Assembly: GCF_018327705.1 (NCBI RefSeq) | Contig: NZ_BNEM01000002.1 | Location: 4,340,001 to 4,404,000 of the forward strand | Source: Catellatospora sp. TT07R-123 | Lineage (GTDB): Bacteria > Actinomycetota > Actinomycetes > Mycobacteriales > Micromonosporaceae | DNA: 64,000 nt | Direction of reading: 5' to 3' | In this document: positions 6,480-61,711 of the stretch, one piece after another | How the letters are laid out: each line of letters opens with the position of its first letter | Numbering within the stretch: position 1 is the first letter of the stretch | Position numbers and translations under genes: made by a program | The notes under the pieces: model-generated | Database searches by the model: none | Told to the model about the DNA's origin: nothing | What the model saw: only the letters and a program-made list of their open reading frames with translations

Positions 6480-7442
6480 ATGAAGCAGTTGATGACCCGA
6501 CGCCGTGCGCTGCTGGCCGGCGGCGCCGGCCTGGCCGCGCTGACCGGCGGCGGCTTCTGGCTGGCCTCCCGCGGCGAGACCGGCACCCCCGGCGTCCTCG
6601 GCACCACCCTGCCGTCGAACTCGCCCACCCCGTCGGCGACGGCGTCGCCCGCGGCGTCGGTCTCGCCCAGCCCGAGCCGCGAAGCCGCCGGGACCGTGCC
6701 GGTGCAGCCGGGTGCGCCCGGGATCGAGCACGCGTCCCTGACCGAGACGACCACCGGTCTGGTCAGCGTCAACGTCTCGCACTGGTGGAGCTGGGCGCTG
6801 ATGGACCGGTCGTCGGGCCGGATCATCGGCTCGCCGAACTTCCACCAGACCAACATGACCGCCTCGATGATCAAGGCGTGGCTGGCCGCGGACTACCTGC
6901 GCCGCGCCACCGAGTCCGGCACCACCCCGAGCACCGCGCGCATGAACATGATCAGCACGATGATCCGCGACAGCGCCAACGAGCCCGCCTCGACGCTCTA
7001 CGGCGAGCTGGGCCGCTCGGCCACCATCGGCCGCCTCGTCTCGATCTGCAAGCTCACCGACTCCCGGGCCGGTGACGGCTGGAGCACCACCCAGCTGTCC
7101 GCCCGCGACACCTGCCGCATCGCCAACTGCATCGGCAACGGCACCGCCGCGGGGCCCCGGTGGACCACCTGGCTGGTCAACGAGATGCGCAACGTACGCG
7201 GTGACGGCGACTTCGGCATCCGCCGGGCCTGGCCCGCCGACGAGCAGAAGACCATCGCCATCAAGAACGGCTGGGTCGACCGGCAGGCACTCGGCTTCTG
7301 GACCGTCAACTGCATGGCCCTGGGCGACACCTGGACCATGGCGGTCATGACCCGGCCCCCGCTGAGCAAGCCGTGGTCCGCCGGCGGCGACATCGCCAGG
7401 TCCGTCGCCACCCAGCTCCGCACCGCCACCGACCTGGTCTGA
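6480..7442 (+). CDS. Tat-exported serine hydrolase, class A beta-lactamase-like (copy 2)
   Basis: The 320-residue protein starts at ATG 6480, with a second in-frame ATG at 6492. Its N-terminus has a twin-arginine signal (MTRRRALLAGG), then a Ser/Pro/Thr-rich linker. The catalytic layout matches copy 1: SMIK (Ser129, Lys132), DSANEPASTLY in the SDN position, and KNGW (Lys262). The two proteins share many blocks, such as AWLAADYLRRA and the GTAAGP region, so they arose by tandem duplication, yet one has a general-type signal and the other a Tat signal. Export by different routes may separate their roles. The gene is followed by a long palindromic element. Confidence 0.75.
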   Translation: MKQLMTRRRALLAGGAGLAALTGGGFWLASRGETGTPGVLGTTLPSNSPTPSATASPAASVSPSPSREAAGTVPVQPGAPGIEHASLTETTTGLVSVNVSHWWSWALMDRSSGRIIGSPNFHQTNMTASMIKAWLAADYLRRATESGTTPSTARMNMISTMIRDSANEPASTLYGELGRSATIGRLVSICKLTDSRAGDGWSTTQLSARDTCRIANCIGNGTAAGPRWTTWLVNEMRNVRGDGDFGIRRAWPADEQKTIAIKNGWVDRQALGFWTVNCMALGDTWTMAVMTRPPLSKPWSAGGDIARSVATQLRTATDLV

Positions 7443-7504
7443 CCCCACCCGCCGCGCGCCGCGCCCCCGGGCGGGCGCGCGCTGGGCGTGATCACGCTGG
7501 GCGT

Positions 7505-7575
7505 GATCGTGCAGTTTCGGGGAAACTGCACGAATTCACGCGCCGATTCCAGCAGTTTCCCCGAAACTGCATGAT
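7505..7575. repeat. Intergenic palindromic element, family A, copy 1
   Basis: Arms of about 25 bases at 7505-7529 and 7552-7575 surround a 22-base centre. The arm core GCAGTTTCGGGGAAA recurs at 27393 and 30845. In this copy each arm is also nearly self-complementary. It sits between the convergent serine hydrolase and mqnA genes and may double as a terminator. Confidence 0.75.
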
Positions 7576-7616
7576 CGACCCGCCTGCCCCCGGCGGGGGT
7601 GGCAGGGCGGGCCCGG

Positions 7617-9706
<2,090 letters not shown>

Positions 9707-48529: not shown

Positions 48530-48567
48530 GGGCTGCTAGCTCAATGGCAGAGCTGTGGACTTTTAAT
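48530..48567 (+). pseudogene. Truncated tRNA-Lys: 5' half only
   Basis: Thirty-eight bases are identical to the 5' half of the intact tRNA-Lys at 60744-60818, ending within the anticodon arm just after TTTTAAT. The orientation is opposite to the intact gene. The upstream bases CCGGTACCCTG also resemble the sequence before the intact tRNA, so its promoter region is partly shared. No 3' half follows, so it cannot make a tRNA. Confidence 0.85.
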
Positions 48568-48802: not shown

Positions 48803-49642
48803 TCAGTCCCACTCGCGGCCGAGGAGCGCAAACGCCATCGCGATCAGTGCTTGCCCGTCGCGGCGGTTGAAGTCGATCTTTTCTGTGACTTCGTCGCCAT
48901 GTGGTGCGGCGTTGAGCACGCCGAGGACAGCGTGAAAGGCTGCCGCCCAGCGCTGGGACTTGTCGCGCTGCTGAGCGGGAACGTCCTTGAAGCTCTTCTC
49001 CGTCGGGATGGATTCGATCTCGCGGAAGCGGTCGACGGCTCGGCGGAGTGCCACTGCGGCGTCCTGGTCCCGGTTATCCCGGTAGGCAACTTCCGCGTCC
49101 CGCAGGAACCCGACCACGGACGCCATGCCACCGTGGCCGTTGCCTACGGCGGGTACTGCCACGGTGAAGTGCGCCATCCGCTCTACGCCAGCGAGTTGCC
49201 TTAGCCATGCCGCCCGGTCCACCCGGGCTGGGTAGGGCTGGGGGTTGAACATCGGATAGGTCTTGCCCTGGTACACGAGGGTGGCGTTGACGCGCAGTTC
49301 GAGCGTGAAGTCGTCACCTCTGCGCATATCCTCGATCTGCCAAAGCTGATTATCTGATATCGGCAGCACGATGTGCCCAGTGTTGTCGATGTTCAACGGG
49401 CGCAACAGCAGAGGCTCCGCGTGGGTCCAATTGCAGAGCCACCGGCGCGGACGCGTCCCGCCGCTGACGACGACGGCCTCACCCGAAAGAAAGAGGAAGC
49501 CGCCTGTCAGCTCGTGCTGCCTGACGGTCGCAGTTAGATGCAGCCCATGGCTCGCCGCCCCTGGATGAAGCTGCGGATCGCGGAAGCCGACCAATACCTG
49601 ATGGTCAACTTTCTCGACGTCGAACTTGAGACCGATGTTCAT
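48803..49642 (-). CDS. Unknown protein downstream of qatD
   Basis: Using ATG 49642 (GTG 49648 also possible) the protein has 279 residues. An earlier GTG at 49882 would add 80 residues of unlikely composition. The first two-thirds look beta-rich (KFDVEKVDHQVLVGFRDPQ, GGFLFLSGEAVVVSGG, FTLELRVNATLVYQGKTYPMF). The last third is helical (DAAVALRRAVDRFREIES). No family or catalytic motif was recognised. It follows the four Qat genes on the same strand after a 246-base gap. Confidence 0.65.
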   Translation of the reverse strand: MNIGLKFDVEKVDHQVLVGFRDPQLHPGAASHGLHLTATVRQHELTGGFLFLSGEAVVVSGGTRPRRWLCNWTHAEPLLLRPLNIDNTGHIVLPISDNQLWQIEDMRRGDDFTLELRVNATLVYQGKTYPMFNPQPYPARVDRAAWLRQLAGVERMAHFTVAVPAVGNGHGGMASVVGFLRDAEVAYRDNRDQDAAVALRRAVDRFREIESIPTEKSFKDVPAQQRDKSQRWAAAFHAVLGVLNAAPHGDEVTEKIDFNRRDGQALIAMAFALLGREWD

Positions 49643-49888
49643 GCTCACAAGCAGTAATCCTTGCACCCGGGAATGGAGCGGGGCATCTCGGTTTCCTGGG
49701 CGGCCCCGCCGAAGGGTCTGGCACATACCGGTCGCTGACGTGGACGCGGGACCGGAGAGGCGCAGGGCACCACATTTGAGGGCGCCCTCGCCTCTGCCGG
49801 CGTAGAGGTCGCCGAACTCGCGGCTGCGCGCCACAGGATGGACTTGCCGCTCCGTCAAGTTGCCACCAACGATGCGGTACACCCAGCT

Positions 49889-50653
49889 TTAGGGCACGAT
49901 ATCCATCGTTCGCTGCAGCGCCGACGGGAGGCGTTCCAGCGCCTTCGACCGCTGCGCAAGATCCGCTAGGTTGCGGTACCACATTAACCGGACCTCGCTT
50001 TGCGGAACCCCGATGAGGCTCATCAACCGAGTCTCCAGATAGTCAATGTCGCCTGGGATCTTTGCCTTTATGGATCTCCGGCTACTTGGAAAGTCCGTCT
50101 CGGGCAGCATCCTGTTAGCCGGAATAAGCTTGAGCTGATCATCGGTCATTGCAGCATTAACCGAGAAGAAGCAGCCGGTCTCCGTGGCCCGATCGACCTC
50201 GGACGGGGCACCGGTGAACCAGTGCAAGATCACGCCTGGATGCGGAGTCTGTTCTAACAGCTCCACCAGCTCCGCGGTACGTCCTGTGCTGTGCAGCGAA
50301 AGCATCACCGGCTTTCCGCGGCAAGCCTCAAGGATTGTTGCGAGAGCGGTTTGCTGTGGTCCGAGTGGTGCTGAGCGGTCGAGTCCTACTTCGCCTATGA
50401 GCACGTGCTGTTGAACGGCGGCTCGTATTCCCTCTGCGGTCACGAGAGCGGGTGAGGTCTTTAGGCCGGGATGCGCACCGTAGCCCCAGACTATGGTTTC
50501 ATCCGCACGCCGAACGGCCACGCGGGCCTCGGCAGGACTGCGGGTCATCGCGAAGATAAAAGCGCCTCCGAGTCCGGCGACCTGGGGCCTCGTGACGTCG
50601 GGTGCTATGTGGGCGTGGCAGTCCAGACGGGGTAGGTCAGGGACGTGGGACAC
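49889..50653 (-). CDS. qatD: QatD: TatD-family metal-dependent hydrolase
   Basis: The 254-residue protein starts at GTG 50653, overlapping the qatC end by 17 bases. Metal ligands expected for TatD are visible: His13 and His15 (CHAHI), a Glu in LIGEVGLD, His in MLSLHSTG, His in HWFTG, and Asp in PETDFPSSR. TatD proteins are DNases or related hydrolases. Together with the KAP ATPase, QatB and a QueC-like protein it completes the QatABCD anti-phage system; QatD is the presumed nuclease-like effector or processing enzyme. Confidence 0.9.
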   Translation of the reverse strand: MSHVPDLPRLDCHAHIAPDVTRPQVAGLGGAFIFAMTRSPAEARVAVRRADETIVWGYGAHPGLKTSPALVTAEGIRAAVQQHVLIGEVGLDRSAPLGPQQTALATILEACRGKPVMLSLHSTGRTAELVELLEQTPHPGVILHWFTGAPSEVDRATETGCFFSVNAAMTDDQLKLIPANRMLPETDFPSSRRSIKAKIPGDIDYLETRLMSLIGVPQSEVRLMWYRNLADLAQRSKALERLPSALQRTMDIVP

Positions 50654-51905
50654 TGCGAAGCTCCTTCAGGCCGCGGTTGCAGATGTCGATGACGGCGTCG
50701 AAGTCGGTGCCGACCGGCCACATGCCTGAAGCGAGAACGCGGTACTCGTCGAAGCCCGCTTCAACGGCGTAGCACCAGGCGGCGATGTCATGGCGGCGGT
50801 AGTCGAGGAACCGCTGTCGTGACTGCTCGGGTAGTACATCCATGAGGTAGGTCGTCTGGTCCTCGCGCCCGCCGCCGACGAAGGCGCCTCGTCTTACCAG
50901 GCAGGCGACGCAGAGTCCGCAGTTGAGGTTGGCGTTGCCGCCCTTGAGGCGCCCGGCGTTCGGCTTTGCGCAGGACAGGGTCGCGGCGGCGAGGGTGGCA
51001 TCGTCTGGGTCGTGTGGCCGCAGTGCAGCAGCTACAAGCTCGCCCTTCGTCATGTGCCCATACGGGTTTGTGACCGCGATGTGAGCGAGGCGGAGTTCGC
51101 TCAGAAGCTGCTTGAACTGGTGGAAAGTCCATGGGTGGGTCGACCGTGTGGTGAGCGGCCCGCCGCGGGAAGGCTCAAGCGGTGGATTGATGCTGGTAAA
51201 CCCATTCTCCGGCATAGTGACCCGCTGGGCCTCGCGGCCCGTAGCGGCGGCTACGCCGAGTGCCATGAACAGCAATGACCGGGTCCGCGGGGTCGCTTCC
51301 TTGATCTTCAGCAGTGGTCGAAGGGCGAGGCGCTGGTACTCCGCCGTGGGCCTGCGCTGCTGGATCGCCTGCCGGACAGCGGACTGGGCGCGCCGTACGG
51401 CGTTCGACGGGTCGCGATGACCCAGGTAGAGCACTCCCTCGGGCTCGCCCAGTTGTAGCAGCGCTCCGCACAGTGAATCCAGACCCCCCGACAGCAGGCT
51501 TACCGCCTCCACCGCGGTGCCAGGTGCGGCCAGCCGGTCCTTTAGCTTCTTCGCCGAGACAACCTGCAGGCGCCAGGTATCCCCAGTAAGCCAGTGCAGA
51601 AGGTCAACGGCGGTGTCGAGCGCTGGCTGCGTCCATTTACTGGAGTCTTCGAGGTGCACGATGATGCTCAGATCCCGGCAGAGCAGTTGGCCGGATCTGC
51701 GGGTGACTCGGTCGGCCACATACGCGGCTGTGACCACCCGCAACAGATCCCGTGCGGTGACAGGGACGTTGCCAAGCTCGGCCATGTCCCACCCGAAGTC
51801 GGCCTGCATGGTCACGGTCGACCCAGCGGCGAGGGGCCACTCAACGAGCGTCGCAGACTCAACCACGCCCGAGGCGCCCCCAGGCACCAGCTCAATAGCG
51901 TTCAT
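50637..51905 (-). CDS. qatC: QatC: QueC-like 7-cyano-7-deazaguanine synthase homologue
   Basis: The 422-residue protein starts at ATG 51905, overlapping the qatB stop by four bases. An N-terminal extension of about 130 residues precedes the QueC-like domain. The PP-loop SGGLDS is at 139-144, and a zinc-type cysteine set occurs at about 314-337, including NCGLCVAC. QueC makes a nitrile-bearing deazaguanine from ATP and ammonia; in Qat and related defence systems a QueC-like protein is recruited for phage resistance, by chemistry that may modify a protein or nucleotide. Confidence 0.9.
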   Translation of the reverse strand: MNAIELVPGGASGVVESATLVEWPLAAGSTVTMQADFGWDMAELGNVPVTARDLLRVVTAAYVADRVTRRSGQLLCRDLSIIVHLEDSSKWTQPALDTAVDLLHWLTGDTWRLQVVSAKKLKDRLAAPGTAVEAVSLLSGGLDSLCGALLQLGEPEGVLYLGHRDPSNAVRRAQSAVRQAIQQRRPTAEYQRLALRPLLKIKEATPRTRSLLFMALGVAAATGREAQRVTMPENGFTSINPPLEPSRGGPLTTRSTHPWTFHQFKQLLSELRLAHIAVTNPYGHMTKGELVAAALRPHDPDDATLAAATLSCAKPNAGRLKGGNANLNCGLCVACLVRRGAFVGGGREDQTTYLMDVLPEQSRQRFLDYRRHDIAAWCYAVEAGFDEYRVLASGMWPVGTDFDAVIDICNRGLKELRSVPRP

Positions 51906-52678
51906 GCGCTGCCCCTGATGCCTAGGACCCGGAATGTCTTGGATGCGAGCTTACTGGCGAATTCGATGAAGCCCTGAACCGTCAACTTGGCTTTTTCGGT
52001 TACACGGCCTGCGGCGATGTGGGCGTGGAGGTACTTCCGTGCGTCTTCTTCGATCTGTTTAGCCCGCTGTGGCGTGACGGTGTTCTCACGGCGCTGGGAA
52101 GTCAGCTCCACAAGTACCTGCTCGTAGGCGAGGTTCTCGATGAAGAGTTCTACCCGGTCTTCAAGGCTTATATCCTCCTTGGCCTTCAGGACCTCAGCCA
52201 TCGTGCGCATGGTGGCCGCGCGAAGCGCCACCTCATCTGGATGGCTTGGTGCTCCGAGTACGGCATCGGCGATGTAAGCGCACTGGGCACGCGCACTCGG
52301 CAGGGAGCGCAGATGATCAAGGTCGAGACCGAGCTCCTGCAACGTCGCAGCGTCACCGCCTCGCAGCGCCTGAGCGCCGGCAATCGCCGCAGCTCCCCGC
52401 CCGACCTGCCTGCTGACGTTGCGGGCACCGCCCCCTCCCGTCCGAGAGCTGGAGGAACCTCCGCCGCCGGATCCCGCCCGACCGGGCAGGAGCGAGCCAA
52501 TCGGGCCAGGTGATCCCTGCGCCGATCCCGCCGACAGCGCCTTCAGCAAGGTGTCGACGAACTTCTCCACCTGCGAGGGTCTGGGCGGTGACGGAGAGTC
52601 GACCATGTCACCGTACGAGTCGTGCACCGCCTCCCATGAGTTCGCGCCGCTGCCGCCGTAAGCCCCTGATGTCCCCAT
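51902..52678 (-). CDS. qatB: QatB component of the QatABCD defence system
   Basis: The 258-residue protein starts at ATG 52678, two bases after the qatA stop. It begins GTSGAYGGSGANSW with a small Gly/Ser-rich N-terminus, then a low-complexity Gly/Ser stretch at about 60-85, and a helical C-terminal domain (VLGAPSHPDEVALRAATMRTM, then a long charged helix). This fits QatB, whose role is not established; the Gly-rich N-terminus is a family feature. Assignment rests on both sequence layout and position between KAP ATPase and QueC-like genes. Confidence 0.85.
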   Translation of the reverse strand: MGTSGAYGGSGANSWEAVHDSYGDMVDSPSPPRPSQVEKFVDTLLKALSAGSAQGSPGPIGSLLPGRAGSGGGGSSSSRTGGGGARNVSRQVGRGAAAIAGAQALRGGDAATLQELGLDLDHLRSLPSARAQCAYIADAVLGAPSHPDEVALRAATMRTMAEVLKAKEDISLEDRVELFIENLAYEQVLVELTSQRRENTVTPQRAKQIEEDARKYLHAHIAAGRVTEKAKLTVQGFIEFASKLASKTFRVLGIRGSA

Positions 52679-52680
52679 CG

Positions 52681-54450
52681 TCAGAAGCGCCCTTCGAGGA
52701 GTTCCTCGCTGGCCGCTCTCGCTACGCGCTCATCGATGCCCGGTGTCTCAGCCAGCGCAGTCAGCACGTCGCGGAGCTTCGCCAGGAACACAACGTGGTG
52801 AGTCTGAATCGCTCGCAGCACAGCTGGCGCGGTCAGTGCCTGCGCGGCAGCTTGAGCGTGGCGCTGTTCACCCTCGATAATCAGCTGAAGCGAGTTGATG
52901 ATGAACCCGGCGTCGTCGGTGCGAGACAGCGCGTCGCAGAGTCCCTGAACAACAGTGTCCTGATCTGCGGCCGGCAAGCCCAGAACTCGCTGTACGGCCG
53001 CCTTGCGCGTCGACTCCGACGGATCGCACAGCAGCTCGATAAGTTCGAGCTGAACCGCACTGACCGCGCCGCCGAACCGGACGTCGCTCTTGAGTGTCGA
53101 GGCGACACTGAGATAGCGATCAACCGCATCTGCCTGGTCCCTCAGCGAGGGAGCGTGAGCAGCCCACGCCTTGGTGTCCCCGACACCCTCTGGCGCGGTA
53201 GCACCCTTCTTGCCCTGAGCCCAGTCCTCCCATGCGCCGACGAGCAGCTTGCGCTCAGCCTTACCCTTGCCAGCAAGAGTCTGAAACGCCTCCGAGTACC
53301 GAAGCTCGAGAAGGTACAGCTTCACCAGGACATCCAGCCGCAGCTCTGCGCCAGCGAGGGTAGCCAGGTGCTCGCGCACCGCCATCGCATTCAAGAACCG
53401 CTTGATCGCGCGCGGGCTGCTCCACACGTCGGCCGCCAGGCCGGAAGCGATGCTGCGGGCAAGCGACAGTTGTTCGACGGTGGGCTCACTCTTCGACTCG
53501 TCGACAACAACGTAGGGCGCCTTGCCCGCCCTGCGGCGTACCCCAGAGGCAGCGATGATCTCCTTGTAGCGCTTACCGGTTATCGAGCCGGAATTACACA
53601 GGAGCAGTGCGATGTATGCCTCGGCCTGCTCAAGGGACAGCTGCGGCAGCGTGACCGGGATCTGCACGATCTTCTCGGTGTAAAGCTTCGCGAACCCTCC
53701 ACGTGCCGACCCGCGCAACTCCAGTTCGACGCCATCCTTGATCAGGTCCTGATCAGCGGCGATCACGAAAGCCATCTTCTTCACTGACAGGAACAGCTTG
53801 ATCGACTCCATGGTAGCCATGATCGTCGGGGGCAGACACCGGTCCAGGTCATCAACCAGCACGACCACCCGAGTAAGGCCATCGATAGCCTTCATGAGCT
53901 GCTCAAACTGTTGCCTGAAGCCCGCCATCCCTTGCATGACCTCATCGGCGTCGCTCGTCTTCTCCTTCGGCGTCAGGGCATCGACGAGGCCGTTTAGGTC
54001 AAGTGACACGCTTACGGCGCTACTGACGAGAGCCTTGGCTACACGCCCCCAGGCAATTCGCTTACGGAGATCGTTCAGTTTGCCGCCGAGTTCCGCGGCC
54101 TTGTCCTTGAGTGACTTCTGCCCGTTCACATAAGTCTGAAGGCAGTCGAGCACCTGCGCGATGAGAGTACCGCGCATGTCCTCAGCGTTTTGAAACTCCC
54201 ACGGATCGATGCGTACCACGAGGATGTTCCCGTGTTTTGAAAGCTCCTTGTCGATGAGATTCAAGGCGGTTGACTTCCCGCCACCCCAGGCACTGTGGAT
54301 TCCTACCGTCACCGGGTCGAGACCACCCGACGACACGATTCTGGCTACGACCCCTGCGACTGCGTCGAAGCCTAGGAGGTCTTCCAACGCCGGGTTGTCA
54401 TCGTAGAGGGATGCGCTCATGACAACAGCAGAAGTCAATGGGGTGCTCAC
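52681..54450 (-). CDS. qatA: QatA: KAP family P-loop ATPase
   Basis: The 589-residue protein has GTG 54450 or ATG 54420 as start; neither has a convincing ribosome binding site. Walker A GIHSAWGGGKST is at 50-61, followed by RIDPWEFQ, and Walker B VVVLVDDLDR near 195-204, the pattern of KAP NTPases. A hydrophobic stretch lies within the KAP insertion near 138-155 (KALVSSAVSVSLDLNGLV). QatA is the ATPase of the QatABCD anti-phage system and probably senses infection or drives assembly. GC content is slightly lower here than in the housekeeping part of the window. Confidence 0.9.
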   Translation of the reverse strand: MSTPLTSAVVMSASLYDDNPALEDLLGFDAVAGVVARIVSSGGLDPVTVGIHSAWGGGKSTALNLIDKELSKHGNILVVRIDPWEFQNAEDMRGTLIAQVLDCLQTYVNGQKSLKDKAAELGGKLNDLRKRIAWGRVAKALVSSAVSVSLDLNGLVDALTPKEKTSDADEVMQGMAGFRQQFEQLMKAIDGLTRVVVLVDDLDRCLPPTIMATMESIKLFLSVKKMAFVIAADQDLIKDGVELELRGSARGGFAKLYTEKIVQIPVTLPQLSLEQAEAYIALLLCNSGSITGKRYKEIIAASGVRRRAGKAPYVVVDESKSEPTVEQLSLARSIASGLAADVWSSPRAIKRFLNAMAVREHLATLAGAELRLDVLVKLYLLELRYSEAFQTLAGKGKAERKLLVGAWEDWAQGKKGATAPEGVGDTKAWAAHAPSLRDQADAVDRYLSVASTLKSDVRFGGAVSAVQLELIELLCDPSESTRKAAVQRVLGLPAADQDTVVQGLCDALSRTDDAGFIINSLQLIIEGEQRHAQAAAQALTAPAVLRAIQTHHVVFLAKLRDVLTALAETPGIDERVARAASEELLEGRF

Positions 54451-54657: not shown

Positions 54658-55596
54658 TCAGCCACCCCATCGGCGTCGGCGGGGAACTTCCCGCACGGGG
54701 ATTTCGGACAGGTCGAGCGGCCGGTCGACGACGGGTCGGGATTTCTCCGGGGTTATCCGGTCTTGTTCGTGCTCGTCGCTGAAATGTATGGCCCTGGTCT
54801 TGTCCCCGGCGCGTTCGAGCGCGGCGATGAGTTCGGTCACCAGCAGGTCGAGTCGGCGGGCCTCGGCTTCGGCGGCGATCAGGCGTTCCTGGAAGGTCAC
54901 CGCCCGGTGCCCGCACCACTGGCGGAGCAGTTCGTGCCGCGGTCGGTGGTGGCTCAGGTACCAGTGGTACTCCCACTGGGGCGATGTCGTCTCAGGCTCG
55001 CCGGTCAGGTAGTTCCTGCGTTCGGAGCCGTGCTTGCACTTGTGGCGTAGTTCGGTCTCCTGCTCGACGACCCAGTTCAGCACCGGCATCGGGGTGTGCC
55101 GACACGCTGCCTCGGCAATCGCGAGCGTTCCGGTGCGCGAGAGCATGATCGCGCCGTCATGTTCGAACCACGGCCCAGCGGCCAGAATCTCTTTGGTCTT
55201 GAGCCCGATGAGGCTGGCGAGGCCTTCGAGGTCCCGGATCCCGGTGGCGTCGCGCACCGATGACCACTCCAGTTCCGCGATGTCAGCAGGCACCAGAAGC
55301 TCGAACACCATACCGACGCAGCTCTGCTCGACCTCGTCAAGGACGCAGTCGTCGATACGCTGCCAGTTGGCCATCAGCGCGTCGTACGCCTCGACGCCCT
55401 CCCACCGGACCCGCAAGCGGCTGCCGGGAACGGTTTCGCTCTTGCGCTGCGGGTCGTCCGAGAAGGCGACCTCGACCCGGACGCTCTGCTTGCCGGGCGT
55501 TACCGAAACTATGCGTACACGCTCGGACGGCGCGTTGTCGCGCGCCCGGTAAGCCCACTCGTCTCCGACGACGTACTGCGAGGGATCAACCCGCAT
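54658..55596 (-). CDS. Unknown conserved actinobacterial protein upstream of the Qat genes
   Basis: The 312-residue protein begins at ATG 55596 (MRVDPSQYVVGDEWAYRAR). Its N-terminus looks like a small beta-barrel (RVRIVSVTPGKQSVRVEVAF), the middle is helical, and HRPRHELLRQWCGHRAVTFQERLIAAEAE forms a long helix. I recall similar proteins in Streptomyces without a known function. It is on the same strand as the Qat genes with a 207-base gap, so it may share the island without being part of the system. Confidence 0.65.
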   Translation of the reverse strand: MRVDPSQYVVGDEWAYRARDNAPSERVRIVSVTPGKQSVRVEVAFSDDPQRKSETVPGSRLRVRWEGVEAYDALMANWQRIDDCVLDEVEQSCVGMVFELLVPADIAELEWSSVRDATGIRDLEGLASLIGLKTKEILAAGPWFEHDGAIMLSRTGTLAIAEAACRHTPMPVLNWVVEQETELRHKCKHGSERRNYLTGEPETTSPQWEYHWYLSHHRPRHELLRQWCGHRAVTFQERLIAAEAEARRLDLLVTELIAALERAGDKTRAIHFSDEHEQDRITPEKSRPVVDRPLDLSEIPVREVPRRRRWGG

Positions 55597-55682: not shown

Positions 55683-57143
55683 CTACTGCCGCCACCACTG
55701 CTTCTTGCCGGCGAGGCCGGGATGCCAGGGGTTCTGGTACGACTCTCGCGGATCATTAGGAAGGTTGCCGGATCGGTACTCTTTGTCCGGGCGGTGCGGG
55801 CTCCACCCTTCAAGGAACGCGCGCAGGTCGTCAGGACCCGGGTCGACGTCGAAGCGCACGCCTGCCAACGACGACGGTTCGACAGTGGGGTCGATACGTT
55901 CCGCTTCGGCATTGCCCCAGGCGATCCACTTCACAAGGTCGCCAGCGCCTGTGCCGCTGTCGGCGAGTTGCTGCAGTTCCGTGCAGAACCGCCGGAGTTC
56001 CTGCGCCCGGGTCCACGCGTCGAACGCTGATCTGAAGGTGTCCTGCCGGATCTTGGCTACCGCCTTACGGCGGGCGGAGACGATGGCCGTCTCCCAGCGG
56101 CGGCGCTTGTCGTCCTCCTGCCGCTGCCACTTCTCCATCTGCTGCTCGTTCTCGCGCCGCTGCTCCTCGCGCCGCTTGCGATCCTCGGCGTCAGCGGTCT
56201 CGATGTCGTCGAGCAGCTGGCGAACACGGGCCCGGAATGTCTGGGGCCGCAGCCCAGTCCACTCTTCGCGCTTGTCGTACGAGCGCTGCATGAGGATGCG
56301 AATGCGCCCTGAGGGCACCGAGTCGAACTCGGGGATCTTGTTGATCGAGGGGTTGCGCCTGTTGTCCCGGATCTCCTCGGCCGTGGGCTGATGGGGGACC
56401 TTGTCGTACTCCTCGCTGATGTGCAGCGGACGGGTGATGCCGTGCATGGTGAGCATCAGCCGCGGATTGCGGCCCTTGGTGTTCAACTCGACCTCGTGGC
56501 CGGCCCGGCGTGCCTCGTCGACCAGGCACAGCGCCAAGGTGACGGCGTCTTCGCGCGCCGGTTCCGTTACCAGGCACCAGCCGGTCTGGCTTCTCAGCGC
56601 GGCGGCGATCTGCTCCGGATGACGTATCTGGTGGCGGGCGTTGAGCCGGATCCGGTTCCAAGCGGTGTCATCGGACTGGGCTGTGTCGGCCAGGCGGATG
56701 ACGATGTCACCGTGGTCGCGACCGGTGTGCTGCAGCTGGTATCCGTCGGGCACGAGACTGTTGCTCTGGGCGGCGTGGATGGCCCGGCGAAAAGTGCGGC
56801 GGCTGGCCGCGTCGGGGGCCTCGATACGCAGGATCCGGTCCGGCGCCTCCTGCAGGCGACGGATTAGATCGCCTGCCTCCTTGAGCGGGTTTCCCTTCAA
56901 CTCGGGATCCTTGCCTACTGGCCGGTTCGGATAGCCGCCGTGTTGCAGGTAGTGCCGTCCGGCATCCGTGATCACCGCCGACCAACCGCCGCCCTTGCGG
57001 CTGACGGTCACCAGGCGCCGGCTGGCCAACGCGCGACCCGTCAAACGCTGCCCGGCGAGCTCAGCGGCGCTGAGATCGTTGCCATCGCCAACCAGCCGCA
57101 AGACCGTCAACTGCCGCTCATTAAGTGGGGTCCACCGATCCAT
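55683..57143 (-). CDS. Unknown protein with N-terminal winged-helix-like domain and coiled coil
   Basis: From ATG 57143 the protein has 486 residues. Residues 1-70 look like a winged helix (LNERQLTVLRLVGDG, AELAGQRLTGRALASRRLVTVSRK). Residues about 325-385 are a highly charged coiled coil (RRENEQQMEKWQRQEDDKRRR). The C-terminus is Trp/Pro-rich. No catalytic motif was seen. It is the first of the minus-strand genes leading to the Qat operon, 86 bases before the 312-residue protein. I recall the two as neighbours in other actinomycetes, but could not check this. Confidence 0.65.
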   Translation of the reverse strand: MDRWTPLNERQLTVLRLVGDGNDLSAAELAGQRLTGRALASRRLVTVSRKGGGWSAVITDAGRHYLQHGGYPNRPVGKDPELKGNPLKEAGDLIRRLQEAPDRILRIEAPDAASRRTFRRAIHAAQSNSLVPDGYQLQHTGRDHGDIVIRLADTAQSDDTAWNRIRLNARHQIRHPEQIAAALRSQTGWCLVTEPAREDAVTLALCLVDEARRAGHEVELNTKGRNPRLMLTMHGITRPLHISEEYDKVPHQPTAEEIRDNRRNPSINKIPEFDSVPSGRIRILMQRSYDKREEWTGLRPQTFRARVRQLLDDIETADAEDRKRREEQRRENEQQMEKWQRQEDDKRRRWETAIVSARRKAVAKIRQDTFRSAFDAWTRAQELRRFCTELQQLADSGTGAGDLVKWIAWGNAEAERIDPTVEPSSLAGVRFDVDPGPDDLRAFLEGWSPHRPDKEYRSGNLPNDPRESYQNPWHPGLAGKKQWWRQ

Positions 57144-57936: not shown

Positions 57937-58473
57937 TCACGTGTGCCCGGTAACATCCGGCAACATCGGGGCAGGAAACAGGCCAGCAGTCAGCGACGCT
58001 GCCGCGCTTAGGGCGGAAGTAAGGATATCGGCGTCTTCGGCGTCCGTGCCCCGCGCCGCCAGCACGGTGACGTGCCCAGCGAGCAAGGCAGTCCGTACAC
58101 GCAGTCGGTCGGACAGCGACGCATCCGGGCGGAGCATAAGCTGCGTCGCCCGTTCGAACCGCTGCGTCGCACCTTCACGGCCGGTCGACAGCGCGGTACG
58201 CAGCACGGTCTGGTTCGCCGCCGCGAACCTGATGACGGGCAGCGCCTGCCCTGCGGTTAGCGCGAGCCATCCGCCCAGCAGGTCGGACGAGCGCTGCGCC
58301 GACGGCGGCTGCCCGGCGGCGGCGTCGAGAAGCTCGTCGAGGGCGCGCAGGAGTCCGTCAAACAGACTGGTGACGATCGCGTCCTTGCTCTCGAAGTGGT
58401 AGTACAGCGCAGCCTTGGTGATGCCCAGTTGCTCGGCGATCTCACGCATCGCCGTGGCGTCGTAGCCGCGCCG
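57937..58473 (-). pseudogene. TetR family regulator truncated at its N-terminus
   Basis: The frame encodes a TetR protein from the turn before helix 2 onward: GYDATAMREIAEQLGITKAA, then YYHFESKDAIV and a full C-terminal ligand domain. The usual first helix with its start codon is missing. At about 58473 the sequence changes to an unrelated plus-strand gene end. A GTG or ATG further upstream could still start a chimeric product, but it would lack helix 1 and probably not bind DNA normally. Confidence 0.65.
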
Positions 58474-58475
58474 CT

Positions 58476-58607
58476 TCGATCGGCTGCCACTCCGCCGACG
58501 GCACTCTGCTGGCCTACGGGGCCCGACCGCACCTGCCACCCCTGCTGCGCTGGCTCGCTGAACTCACCCCATCACCCCCACCGGAGCACACCCATGCCCT
58601 CACCTGA
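58476..58607 (+). pseudogene. C-terminal fragment of a gene upstream of xis
   Basis: The plus frame reads SIGCHSADGTLLAYG and continues to a TGA at 58607, overlapping the excisionase-like gene start by 14 bases. This coupling is what a real upstream gene would show, for instance a replication initiator in an integrative element. Its 5' part is missing, replaced by the TetR remnant at about 58475. Confidence 0.5.
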
Positions 58608-58827
58608 CCAGTGGACCGAAGACGCGATCCGCGCCCTCGGGACCTTCACCACCCTGCAAACCGCCGCCCGAATCTTCGGCATCTCCCAGGCCACCGCCTA
58701 CCGCCTCGCCCGCGACAACGAGTTCCCTGTCGCGGCGATCAAAGTCGGCGGCGGCTGGCGCGTTCCCGTCGCCGCGATCCTCGCCGCCGCCCACCTGCCC
58801 ACCGGCGACGCCACCACCGCGACTTGA
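58594..58827 (+). CDS. Excisionase-like helix-turn-helix protein (Xis)
   Basis: From ATG 58594 the protein has 77 residues. It holds an excisionase/MerR-type HTH (TLQTAARIFGISQATAYRLARDNEF) and a wing (AAIKVGGGWRVPVAAI). Such a gene just before a tyrosine integrase is typical of actinomycete integrative elements, where Xis biases the integrase towards excision. It lies 81 bases upstream of int on the same strand. Confidence 0.8.
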   Translation: MPSPDQWTEDAIRALGTFTTLQTAARIFGISQATAYRLARDNEFPVAAIKVGGGWRVPVAAILAAAHLPTGDATTAT

Positions 58828-58908: not shown

Positions 58909-60432
58909 ATGACCGCTGAAGGAACCATCAACAAGTGGTGCACCTGCAAGGACACCAACGGCAAACGACTCAATGCCCGGTGCCCCGGACTGCGCCGCTC
59001 CGACGGCAAATGGCACACCACCCACGGCACCTGGATCTACCAGCTCGAACTCCCACGGACCCGCGACAACAAGCGCCGCCAGCTGCGCCGAAGCCCCGCC
59101 GCGAGCAACAGCCGCGACGCCGCAGTCGCCGAACGCGACCACGCCAAGAACCTGCTCATGCTGGCCGGCGACGACACACTGCTCGCCGACGAGATCGCCA
59201 CCATGCTGCAGGCCGTGCCCAGTGGCACCCCGCTGCCCGACCGCGACACCGTCGCCCGCAGGGTCCGCGCGGGCATACCAGCCAACGTCAGCATCACCGT
59301 CGCCGACTACCTCACCCGCTGGATCACCGAGCGGGTCATGGACGACAACACCCGCAGCGGCTACGACGGCCACATCCGCAACTACCTGATCCCCCACCTC
59401 GGCAAGATCCGCCTCGACCGACTCAACGTCACCCACCTCGACGAGATGTACGCGAAGATCGTCGCCCGCAACGTCGAGATCGACGCCGCCCGCACCAGCC
59501 CCGACCGGCTGGTCCGGGCGAGCGTCAAAGGCAAGAAGCCGATCGGCGCGGCCACCATGACCCGCATCCGCGCCACCCTGCGCAAGGCCCTCAACGACGC
59601 GATCCGCAAGTACCGCTACATCGAGTTCAACCCCGCCCGCCACGTCGAGCTACCCACCGCCGAACAAGCCAAAGCCCGCCTCTGGACCGACGCCCGCGTC
59701 CGCGAATGGCGCAAGACCGGCATCGTCCCCTACCCCGTCATGGTCTGGACCCCCGACCAGGCCGCCGCCTACCTCGACTACACCGAGGAACACGACCCCG
59801 AGCTCTACCCGCTCTACGCGTTCGTCCTACGACGCGGCCCACGCCGGGGCGAGGCCGTCGGCATCAGCAGACCGCAGATCGACCTCGACGAAGCCAGCGC
59901 GACCATCACCCACCAGATCGCCACGCACAAGTACAGGCCGATCTACAAACCGGTCAAAACTCGCACCGGTGACCGCGTACTCGCCCTCGACTCCGACACT
60001 ATCGACGACTTCCAGACGTACAACATCCTGCGCGCCCACTGGGAAGAGACCGCAGGGCCGGCCTGGCCGCGCACGGTCCCGGTCACCACCCCCGTCGACG
60101 GCGGCGGCTACAAGACCATCTACGTGGACCTCTACTTCCGCCAGCCCGACGGCAGCGCCTGGCACCCCGACACCGTCTCCGAACGCTTCGAACGCAACGT
60201 CCGCAAGGCGGACCTACCACCCGTGGGCATCCACGACGGCCGACACGGCGCCGCTACCTACGCCAAGGCCGGGGGTGCGAAGATGGAGGACATCAAGGAG
60301 CAGCTTGGCCACTCCACCATCGCCATCACCGCCGACATCTACACCTCGCTGCTCCGCGAACTCGAGCGGGCTACCGCCGAGAACACCGCCAACGTCCTCA
60401 AGCGCAGACGCCGCGTTAAGCAGAACGTGTAG
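58909..60432 (+). CDS. Tyrosine recombinase/integrase of a tRNA-associated element
   Basis: The 507-residue protein from ATG 58909 has an N-terminal zinc-finger-like arm (CTCKDTNGKRLNARCPG), an SAM-like core-binding domain (about 125-270), and a catalytic domain. Active-site residues are visible: Arg312 in LRRGPRRGEAVG, His442 and Arg445 in HDGRHG, His468 in LGHSTIAITADIY, and nucleophile Tyr478. All are intact, so it may be functional. It points towards an intact tRNA-Lys 311 bases downstream, the probable attachment site. Confidence 0.93.
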   Translation: MTAEGTINKWCTCKDTNGKRLNARCPGLRRSDGKWHTTHGTWIYQLELPRTRDNKRRQLRRSPAASNSRDAAVAERDHAKNLLMLAGDDTLLADEIATMLQAVPSGTPLPDRDTVARRVRAGIPANVSITVADYLTRWITERVMDDNTRSGYDGHIRNYLIPHLGKIRLDRLNVTHLDEMYAKIVARNVEIDAARTSPDRLVRASVKGKKPIGAATMTRIRATLRKALNDAIRKYRYIEFNPARHVELPTAEQAKARLWTDARVREWRKTGIVPYPVMVWTPDQAAAYLDYTEEHDPELYPLYAFVLRRGPRRGEAVGISRPQIDLDEASATITHQIATHKYRPIYKPVKTRTGDRVLALDSDTIDDFQTYNILRAHWEETAGPAWPRTVPVTTPVDGGGYKTIYVDLYFRQPDGSAWHPDTVSERFERNVRKADLPPVGIHDGRHGAATYAKAGGAKMEDIKEQLGHSTIAITADIYTSLLRELERATAENTANVLKRRRRVKQNV

Positions 60433-60743: not shown

Positions 60744-60818
60744 TGGTGGGCCGCCGGGGACTCGAACCCCGAACCTATGGATTAAAAGTCCACAGCTCTG
60801 CCATTGAGCTAGCAGCCC
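60744..60818 (-). tRNA. tRNA-Lys (anticodon TTT)
   Basis: A full cloverleaf is present on the minus strand: acceptor GGGCTGC/GCGGCCC, D arm, anticodon loop CTTTTAA with TTT, T arm CGGGG-TTCGAGT-CCCCG, discriminator A, and an encoded CCA. The 5' half is duplicated in inverted orientation at 48530-48567. It is the likely attachment site of the integrase-bearing island. Confidence 0.95.
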
Positions 60819-60869
60819 GCGCCCACCCAGGCTACCGGACAGCACCCAAAGGCCGACACCAGGTTCAGC

Positions 60870-61711
60870 GGACGGCCCGCCGCGTCCACCCCGGCCGTGC
60901 GGGCACCCTTGTTACTCCGCACCCGGTCCCACGCCACCAGAAGGAACGCGGGATCGGCGACGAGATTGAACAGATCGTCGAACCTGCGATGAGGATCATC
61001 ACGGGCCCACTGGTGCAGCTTGGTCTGGATCTTCAGTACCCAGATCTCGGCCGCATCAGGGCCGACTCCAGTTCGTCGGTGTTCACCGGCGCACTCCTGA
61101 CATTCCAACCCCCGCACTGCCGACTTGCTGGCCCCCTTCGTCTTGCGGCCGGCTCTCCCGACCTCCACGGCGGGTCGTCACGCCCGCGACTACTACGGGG
61201 CCTCCGTCCCACCCGGCGCCATCAGCAGACGACGCGCCTGCCCGTTCCCGCGCTGGCCGCGCGGGACGACGGCGACACCGAGCGGTTCCCACGTTCACCA
61301 CATGCCGATCGACGGGGTCGGCGTCCAGCTTTGCCCCTGCGGCATCGCCACGATTACGCCGTGGGCCTTCACCGTGGCCTCCCACCCAGGAACCGGTAAT
61401 CCCGATGAGGAGTTCCCGACCGGCCACGCCGGACGGTGCGCACCGCATCCCAGCCCACATCCGCCAGGTTCGAGCTGGTGGGTCGTTGAAGAGGCTTTAC
61501 ACACCGGTTTCTCACGTACGCCTTTCCGTCTCCGCTTGCCGGACCCGTACCGTCTGGCAGTACCAGCACGTCCCGGCTTTGTCGGGGCTGCTTGCCGCCC
61601 TCCCCGGCGTCTCCCGGATCAGGCTGCCCCCAGCGTTCACCCGGTTGCCACGACAGCCGGGCGGTGGAGTCCTTTCACCTCCACACGGTCATGCAGCGCC
61701 TCGTGGCGCAC
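60870..61711 (-). mobile_element. Group II intron, 5' part with reverse transcriptase N-terminus
   Basis: On the minus strand the intron begins at about 61711 with GTGCGCCACGAGG, followed by typical domain I sequence. Then comes the start of the intron-encoded protein, whose N-terminal reverse transcriptase part reads VLKIQTKLHQWARDDPHRRF and continues to NKGARTAGVDA near 60880. The rest of the protein and the intron 3' end are missing. The truncation lies about 50-60 bases from the tRNA-Lys. Confidence 0.7.

Follow-up and report, generated by a model that had tools for sequence, protein, structure and literature searches.

A predicted divergent QatABCD operon in Catellatospora, with a QatC partner that may differ from host-made 7-carboxy-7-deazaguanine

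The enzyme QueE makes 7-carboxy-7-deazaguanine (CDG), a precursor of queuosine. The QatABCD defense system, reportedly introduced by Gao et al. in 2020, includes a QueC-like enzyme, QatC, and a small partner protein, QatB. Two 2026 papers, in their available text, favor or propose CDG conjugation but leave open which group QatC adds to QatB. In the accessible part of PMC13279940, QatB and QatC are enough against some phages, Gly2 of QatB and S156/S161 and T278/T280 of QatC are required, and the QatBC reaction is left open, with an NDG-like modification favored; PMC13329287, as far as its text was accessible, proposes carboxydeazaguanylation, in which QatC attaches CDG to the N-terminal glycine of QatB. 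Cap9 of the type IV cyclic oligonucleotide-based antiphage signaling system (CBASS) is also of the QueC family and acts on the N-terminal glycine of its partner, but in QatC the CDG-binding Tyr/Asp are replaced, and QatC has N- and C-terminal extensions that Cap9 lacks (PMC13279940, accessible part). Here we describe a four-gene locus in a 64,000-nucleotide stretch of Catellatospora sp. TT07R-123 (contig NZ_BNEM01000002.1, positions 4,340,001 to 4,404,000), hereafter the window. We consider it fairly probable that the locus is a complete, divergent QatABCD operon carried on an integrative island and that its QatC uses a partner other than host-made CDG.

The original prediction, made from the DNA letters, described four overlapping or abutting minus-strand genes in the layout of a complete QatABCD system. 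The gene coordinates bear this out: qatD, qatC, qatB and qatA nearly abut at 49889-54450 (Table 1), with 2 nucleotides between qatA and qatB and overlaps of 4 nucleotides at qatB/qatC and 17 nucleotides at qatC/qatD. The adjacency of KAP ATPase, QatB, QueC-like and TatD genes that membership in QatABCD requires is present. Among the window proteins, PADLOC models matched QatA (E 7.7e-64), QatC (E 1e-62) and QatD (E 7.5e-28), and the predicted families of all three were confirmed. QatA matches Pfam KAP_NTPase (8.5e-40) and has both the Walker A and Walker B motifs, which are common to most of 85 aligned QatA proteins; QatC matches QueC (7e-6) and carries the PP-loop and cysteine motifs listed in Table 1; and QatD matches TatD_DNase (9.2e-22), and all 86 aligned QatD proteins share its putative metal ligands (both His of HxH, then Glu, His, His and Asp). 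Gene order, motifs and profile matches together lead us to read the locus as a complete QatABCD operon. All four proteins score below the NCBIfam cut-offs (QatA 254.8 bits against 600, QatC 234.5 against 280 and QatD 106.9 against 230; QatB is treated below), as would befit a divergent actinomycete member of the family.

The QatABCD systems of P. aeruginosa and E. coli share this set of four genes and its order (PMC13279940, accessible part), and the QatB MGTS start, the QatC SGGxDS and zinc-type cysteines, the TatD-type QatD and the KAP-type QatA are alike. The window system differs in having Ser where QatC otherwise has Thr280, in its low sequence identity and in a host without recognizable QueE, QueC or TGT. 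Its QatC is 26-30% identical to those of the five non-actinomycete plasmid relatives that we aligned. Among the matches listed, the closest relative is that of Actinocorallia sp. API 0066, whose QatC is 59% identical and whose locus shares the four genes and the T-R-S-T-H-P motif; this host likewise lacks QueC and TGT, and its sole QueE match is a 20.5-bit radical-SAM hit. The window neighbors at 48803-49882, 54658-55596 and 55683-57143 are unmatched in the Actinocorallia locus, and we rejected them as additional Qat subunits since phmmer found them absent from other Qat loci. By homology to studied systems, the window copy would be expected to act in defense. Its divergent scores, all under equivalog cut-offs, would also suit a silent or decaying island passenger that is inactive in its host, but all four reading frames are open, the motifs are intact and the Actinocorallia relative keeps the same four genes, so we regard this alternative as improbable.

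Profile searches against defense-system models, which the original prediction had proposed as a check, succeeded for QatA, QatC and QatD but fell short for QatB. PADLOC found no QatB match among the window proteins, and the NCBIfam QatB model NF041924 matched at E 9.6e-7 with 28.9 bits, under its cut-off of 100; at E ≤ 0.01 the same model matches three of seven members of the window's clade. Comparison with Delftia QatB by hhalign gave a probability of 96 over 134 columns, and a single-sequence PDB search aligned the window protein weakly (E 0.015) with the QatB chain 9vll. A PDB profile search and a fold search returned no QatB match; for the latter, Foldseek with our AlphaFold2 model found no PDB match at E ≤ 0.001 in a fold library that runs to April 2026 and may omit QatBC entries. 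The model, built from 20 sequences, is all-helical with a mean predicted local distance difference test (pLDDT) score of 80.5 and a poorly predicted tail: pLDDT is below 50 at residues 5-8, 52-67 and 69-73, and helices are modeled at 11-26 and 34-50. The MGTS N-terminus expected of QatB is present. With scores under the curated thresholds and no QatB hit from the PDB profile and fold searches, the QatB assignment rests on gene position, the N-terminus and weak profiles. Of 90 rows (the window and 89 loci), 83 show an MGTS start ahead of QatC and two show MGTK (L024 and L080); neither occurs in L003, L037, L050, L066 and L087. In L003, a Rhodococcus plasmid Qat locus, the QatB position (7083-7933) is annotated as two hypothetical proteins.

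QatC aligns with the crystallized QatC chains 9zee (E 1.8e-33) and 9vlk (E 9.7e-31), and assignment as a canonical QueC (preQ0 synthase) fails, with TIGR00364 at 12.2 bits against a cut-off of 150.3. Numbered through the solved chain, the published T278/T280 correspond to window residues T253/S255, so that T278 is kept and T280 is a Ser. Since Ser occupies this position in 13 of 99 QatC sequences, including the window's clade, the label 'invariant' given to Thr280 in the accessible part of PMC13279940 needs qualifying. These residues bear on the proposal that QatC, like Cap9 acting on CD-NTases in type IV CBASS, joins CDG to its partner QatB, with hosts that lack the queuosine pathway relying on an unrecognized QueE or on import. 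The QueC fold, the Gly2 requirement, the AlphaFold3 placement of the QatB tail and the published proposal itself speak for it (PMC13279940 and PMC13329287, accessible parts), but the CDG-binding Tyr/Asp are replaced by Thr/Thr in QatC and by Thr/Ser in the window QatC. Taken with the host data below, we think CDG conjugation rather unlikely here. The CD-NTase that type IV CBASS would have beside its QueC-like gene was not found among the 10 window proteins scanned.

We searched the host genome (G000; 9.17 Mb in 2 contigs, 100% complete, 3.18% contaminated) for the queuosine pathway, a point outside the original prediction, and found no match to QueC (PF06508), QueE (TIGR03365) or TGT (PF01702) at E ≤ 1e-3; in 14 control genomes the same models matched in 12, 10 and 14, respectively. 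The genome does contain one PTPS (QueD-family) gene (L002, G000:C2:2932272-2932652), a point in favor of a CDG-dependent QatC, but it is not in a visible que cluster: it adjoins dehydrogenase-like and glycosyltransferase-like open reading frames (ORFs; families judged by eye), and no queC- or queE-like ORF was visible by eye in the 3.4-kb locus. Because TGT is absent too, no other use for an imported base is evident.

A genome-contig scan with a 10-sequence QatC alignment confirmed at least 113 loci, of which 80 were kept; a choice of 50 of these, mostly isolates, gave the 48 named genomes that we searched. QueE was counted where a TIGR03365 match started at model position ≤12 and reached ≥36 bits, a criterion chosen after the raw counts had been seen. 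It is passed by 32 genomes, and TIGR04322 at plain E ≤ 1e-3 picks out exactly that set. The other 16 genomes are QueE-negative by either model; 13 also lack a full-length QueC and nine also lack TGT. Nine QueE-negative actinomycetes have neither a QueC match nor TGT, which leaves one exception among the ten named actinomycete hosts (L012-L016, L021, L023, L024, L040 and L080): L014, where QueE is present together with a weak QueC match (64.7 bits) but TGT is missing. L014 and L016 form a Leifsonia pair with QatC proteins 96% identical, one host being QueE-positive and the other lacking all three genes. TGT is present in four QueE-negative genomes without full-length QueC (L028, L043, L045 and L062).

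We also drew 393 genomes evenly from the class, 13 of which, G000 included, had a QatC match. Dropping G382 (a partial match of 23.3 bits) and L103 (a lone QatC-like gene with no QatB or QatD) left 11 hosts, eight with QatB, QatC and QatD and three with QatB and QatC only; one, L098, has MGTC in place of MGTS. None of the 11 has a QueE match, raw or filtered. Across the sample, 91 of 393 genomes have a raw TIGR03365 match, none of the 11 among them, and 26 pass the criterion. As QueE is this rare in the class, 0 of 11 amounts to no depletion, and the result shows only that Qat retention does not need QueE. With L103 kept, one of 12 hosts is QueE-positive against 25 of 381 others (Fisher p 0.57). 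Streptomycetes lack both the queuosine pathway genes and TGT according to the accessible part of PMC9262613. Among the papers listed in our literature search, we saw none on Qat in hosts lacking the pathway.

QatC itself changes little with QueE status. Among 38 columns with at least 97% conservation in 31 QueE-positive hosts, 29 show no change in any of the 27 QueE-negative ones, including SGGxDS, R207, R209, T253, H257, P258 and the zinc-type cysteines. On the QatC tree, QueE status changes 11 times, at least 10 of them forced by starred branches (L050 and L103 included). Since the simplest reading is that the same chemistry operates in QueE-positive and QueE-negative hosts, and since the core residues are largely unchanged where QueE is not recognizable (in G000, QueC and TGT are missing as well), host-made CDG is probably not the substrate of QatC. 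Natural Qat operons in such hosts argue against CDG conjugation and make the proposal testable.

Besides the QatB shortfalls, several points weigh against this interpretation. A missing QueE might mean an unrecognized QueE or imported 7-deazaguanine. TIGR03365 at plain E ≤ 1e-3 matches 40 of the 48 genomes; the eight set aside as generic radical-SAM proteins score ≤28.2 bits and miss the N-terminal part of the model, and four of the nine actinomycetes counted as QueE-negative (L012, L023, L024 and L080) have such weak matches. A full-length QueC is present in three QueE-negative genomes (L029, L054 and L076), whose negative calls may be false. In G000, the absence of QueE is by TIGR03365, one of the two QueE models. 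Nine of the 38 QatC columns vary in QueE-negative hosts, for instance F213 (24/27) and R254 (23/27), and QueE status is clustered by lineage, with 11 changes against a mean of about 20 in shuffles. Two of the 11 class-sample hosts, L092 and L093, have identical QatC, and the island copy could be silent. Leaving L050 and L103, whose hosts are QueE-positive, out of the Qat counts favors our interpretation; both were rejected as Qat because they are lone QatC-like genes with no QatB or QatD matches, and they sit together on a long branch of the QatC tree. L050 reads ATRSMHP at the Thr motif, which L103 lacks.

By homology to studied systems, QatB and QatC would form the core of the window system. 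QatC is predicted to bind QatB, to use ATP in its PP-loop site for activating a substrate, and to modify the N-terminal glycine of QatB, exposed once Met is removed; QatA (KAP NTPase) and QatD (TatD nuclease) may widen or regulate the phage range. The partner would more plausibly be a common metabolite, or the QatB tail itself activated by ATP. On balance, we lean slightly toward a QatC that uses no 7-deazaguanine and serves as an ATP-dependent N-terminal modifier, with a universal carboxylate metabolite or the GTS tail of QatB as partner; both the chemistry and the substrate are read here from sequence. In the GTS-tail variant, an ATP-activated peptide carbonyl would be captured by a Thr/Ser hydroxyl or an amine. 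If true, Qat would be an immunity based on protein modification whose chemistry differs from the deazaguanylation of CBASS. Qat in hosts lacking the pathway would also be explained if the phage supplied a 7-deazaguanine intermediate, such that QatC senses phages with que genes. Neither lambda nor T4 is known to carry queE. The P. aeruginosa Qat operon nevertheless acts on both in E. coli (PMC13279940, accessible part), and we judge phage supply highly improbable even though 7-deazaguanine derivatives occur in some bacteriophage DNA (PMC13329287, accessible part). Our QatC scan of viral contigs yielded nothing of use.

In three genomes of one genus (L129-L131, around L100-L102), we observed pairs of QatC and a QatB-like protein starting MGTS or VGTS. 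Profile searches of these 16-kb stretches found no QatA or QatD, and the pairs are possibly natural two-gene QatBC systems.

Table 1. Coordinates of the Qat genes and island features in the window (G000:C2, host-genome contig coordinates)
Feature	Position	Strand	Basis or description
qatA	52681-54450	minus	KAP-family P-loop NTPase, 589 amino acids, GTG start
qatB	51902-52678	minus	Helical protein, 258 amino acids; N-terminus MGTSGAYGGSG; putative QatC substrate
qatC	50637-51905	minus	QueC-like PP-loop enzyme, 422 amino acids; SGGLDS, four zinc-type Cys, T-R-S-T-H-P active-site motif
qatD	49889-50653	minus	TatD-family hydrolase, 254 amino acids, GTG start
Tyrosine-recombinase integrase	58909-60432	plus	Pfam Phage_integrase 1.9e-8, Phage_int_SAM_3 7.9e-5
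Excisionase-like helix-turn-helix protein beside integrase	58396-58827	plus	Pfam HTH_17 2.2e-9; TIGR01764 excise 21.8 bits, cut-off 28.8
Intact tRNA-Lys(TTT)	60744-60818	minus	ARAGORN; Rfam RF00005 68.8 bits
tRNA-Lys(TTT) 5' half, exact 38 bp	48530-48567	plus	Alignment; genome search 100% over positions 1-38; inverted relative to intact gene
tRNA-Lys 3' part	G000:C2:4429057-4429107 (window coordinate 89057, beyond window)		tRNA positions 25-75, 92%

The original prediction placed the operon on an island with an integrase and two tRNA-Lys-derived ends. The integrase and tRNA-Lys(TTT) are present (Table 1), but the ends do not form an ordinary direct-repeat pair: the left half-tRNA has the opposite orientation, and the tRNA-Lys pieces extend over about 40.5 kb, past the window. 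We likewise rejected a plain direct-repeat att pair within the window, given the inverted half-tRNA. The 5' half and the 3' part flank this span, with the intact minus-strand tRNA and the integrase in between. Third-position GC is 0.68-0.90 in the predicted genes from 46791 to 88226. Outside, three left-hand ORFs and one right-hand ORF (89298-90347) have values of 0.96-0.98, and the ORF after that (90344-92773) has 0.82. With the tRNA of a relative (L126) as reference, the 3' part agrees in the T-arm and the intact copy differs there, whereas in the anticodon stem the intact copy agrees and the 3' part differs. This pattern is compatible with a crossover near the anticodon loop and, after it, an inversion or another insertion.

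The left half-tRNA and positions 60781-60818 form a perfect 38-bp inverted repeat around a 12-kb segment containing the integrase and Qat genes, which might allow that segment to invert. The start codon of the excisionase-like ORF may lie too far upstream, its helix-turn-helix being at residues 86-130. A short minus-strand ORF (60809-61168) looks by eye like a fragment of a group II intron reverse transcriptase. On its right side, in window coordinates 64001-88226 (L124 and L125), the island encodes a radical SAM enzyme, a major facilitator superfamily transporter and peptidases of families M16, S8 and S9, as well as an ORF that is YcaO-like by eye; this part is likely a peptide natural-product cluster of the ribosomally synthesized and post-translationally modified (RiPP) type.

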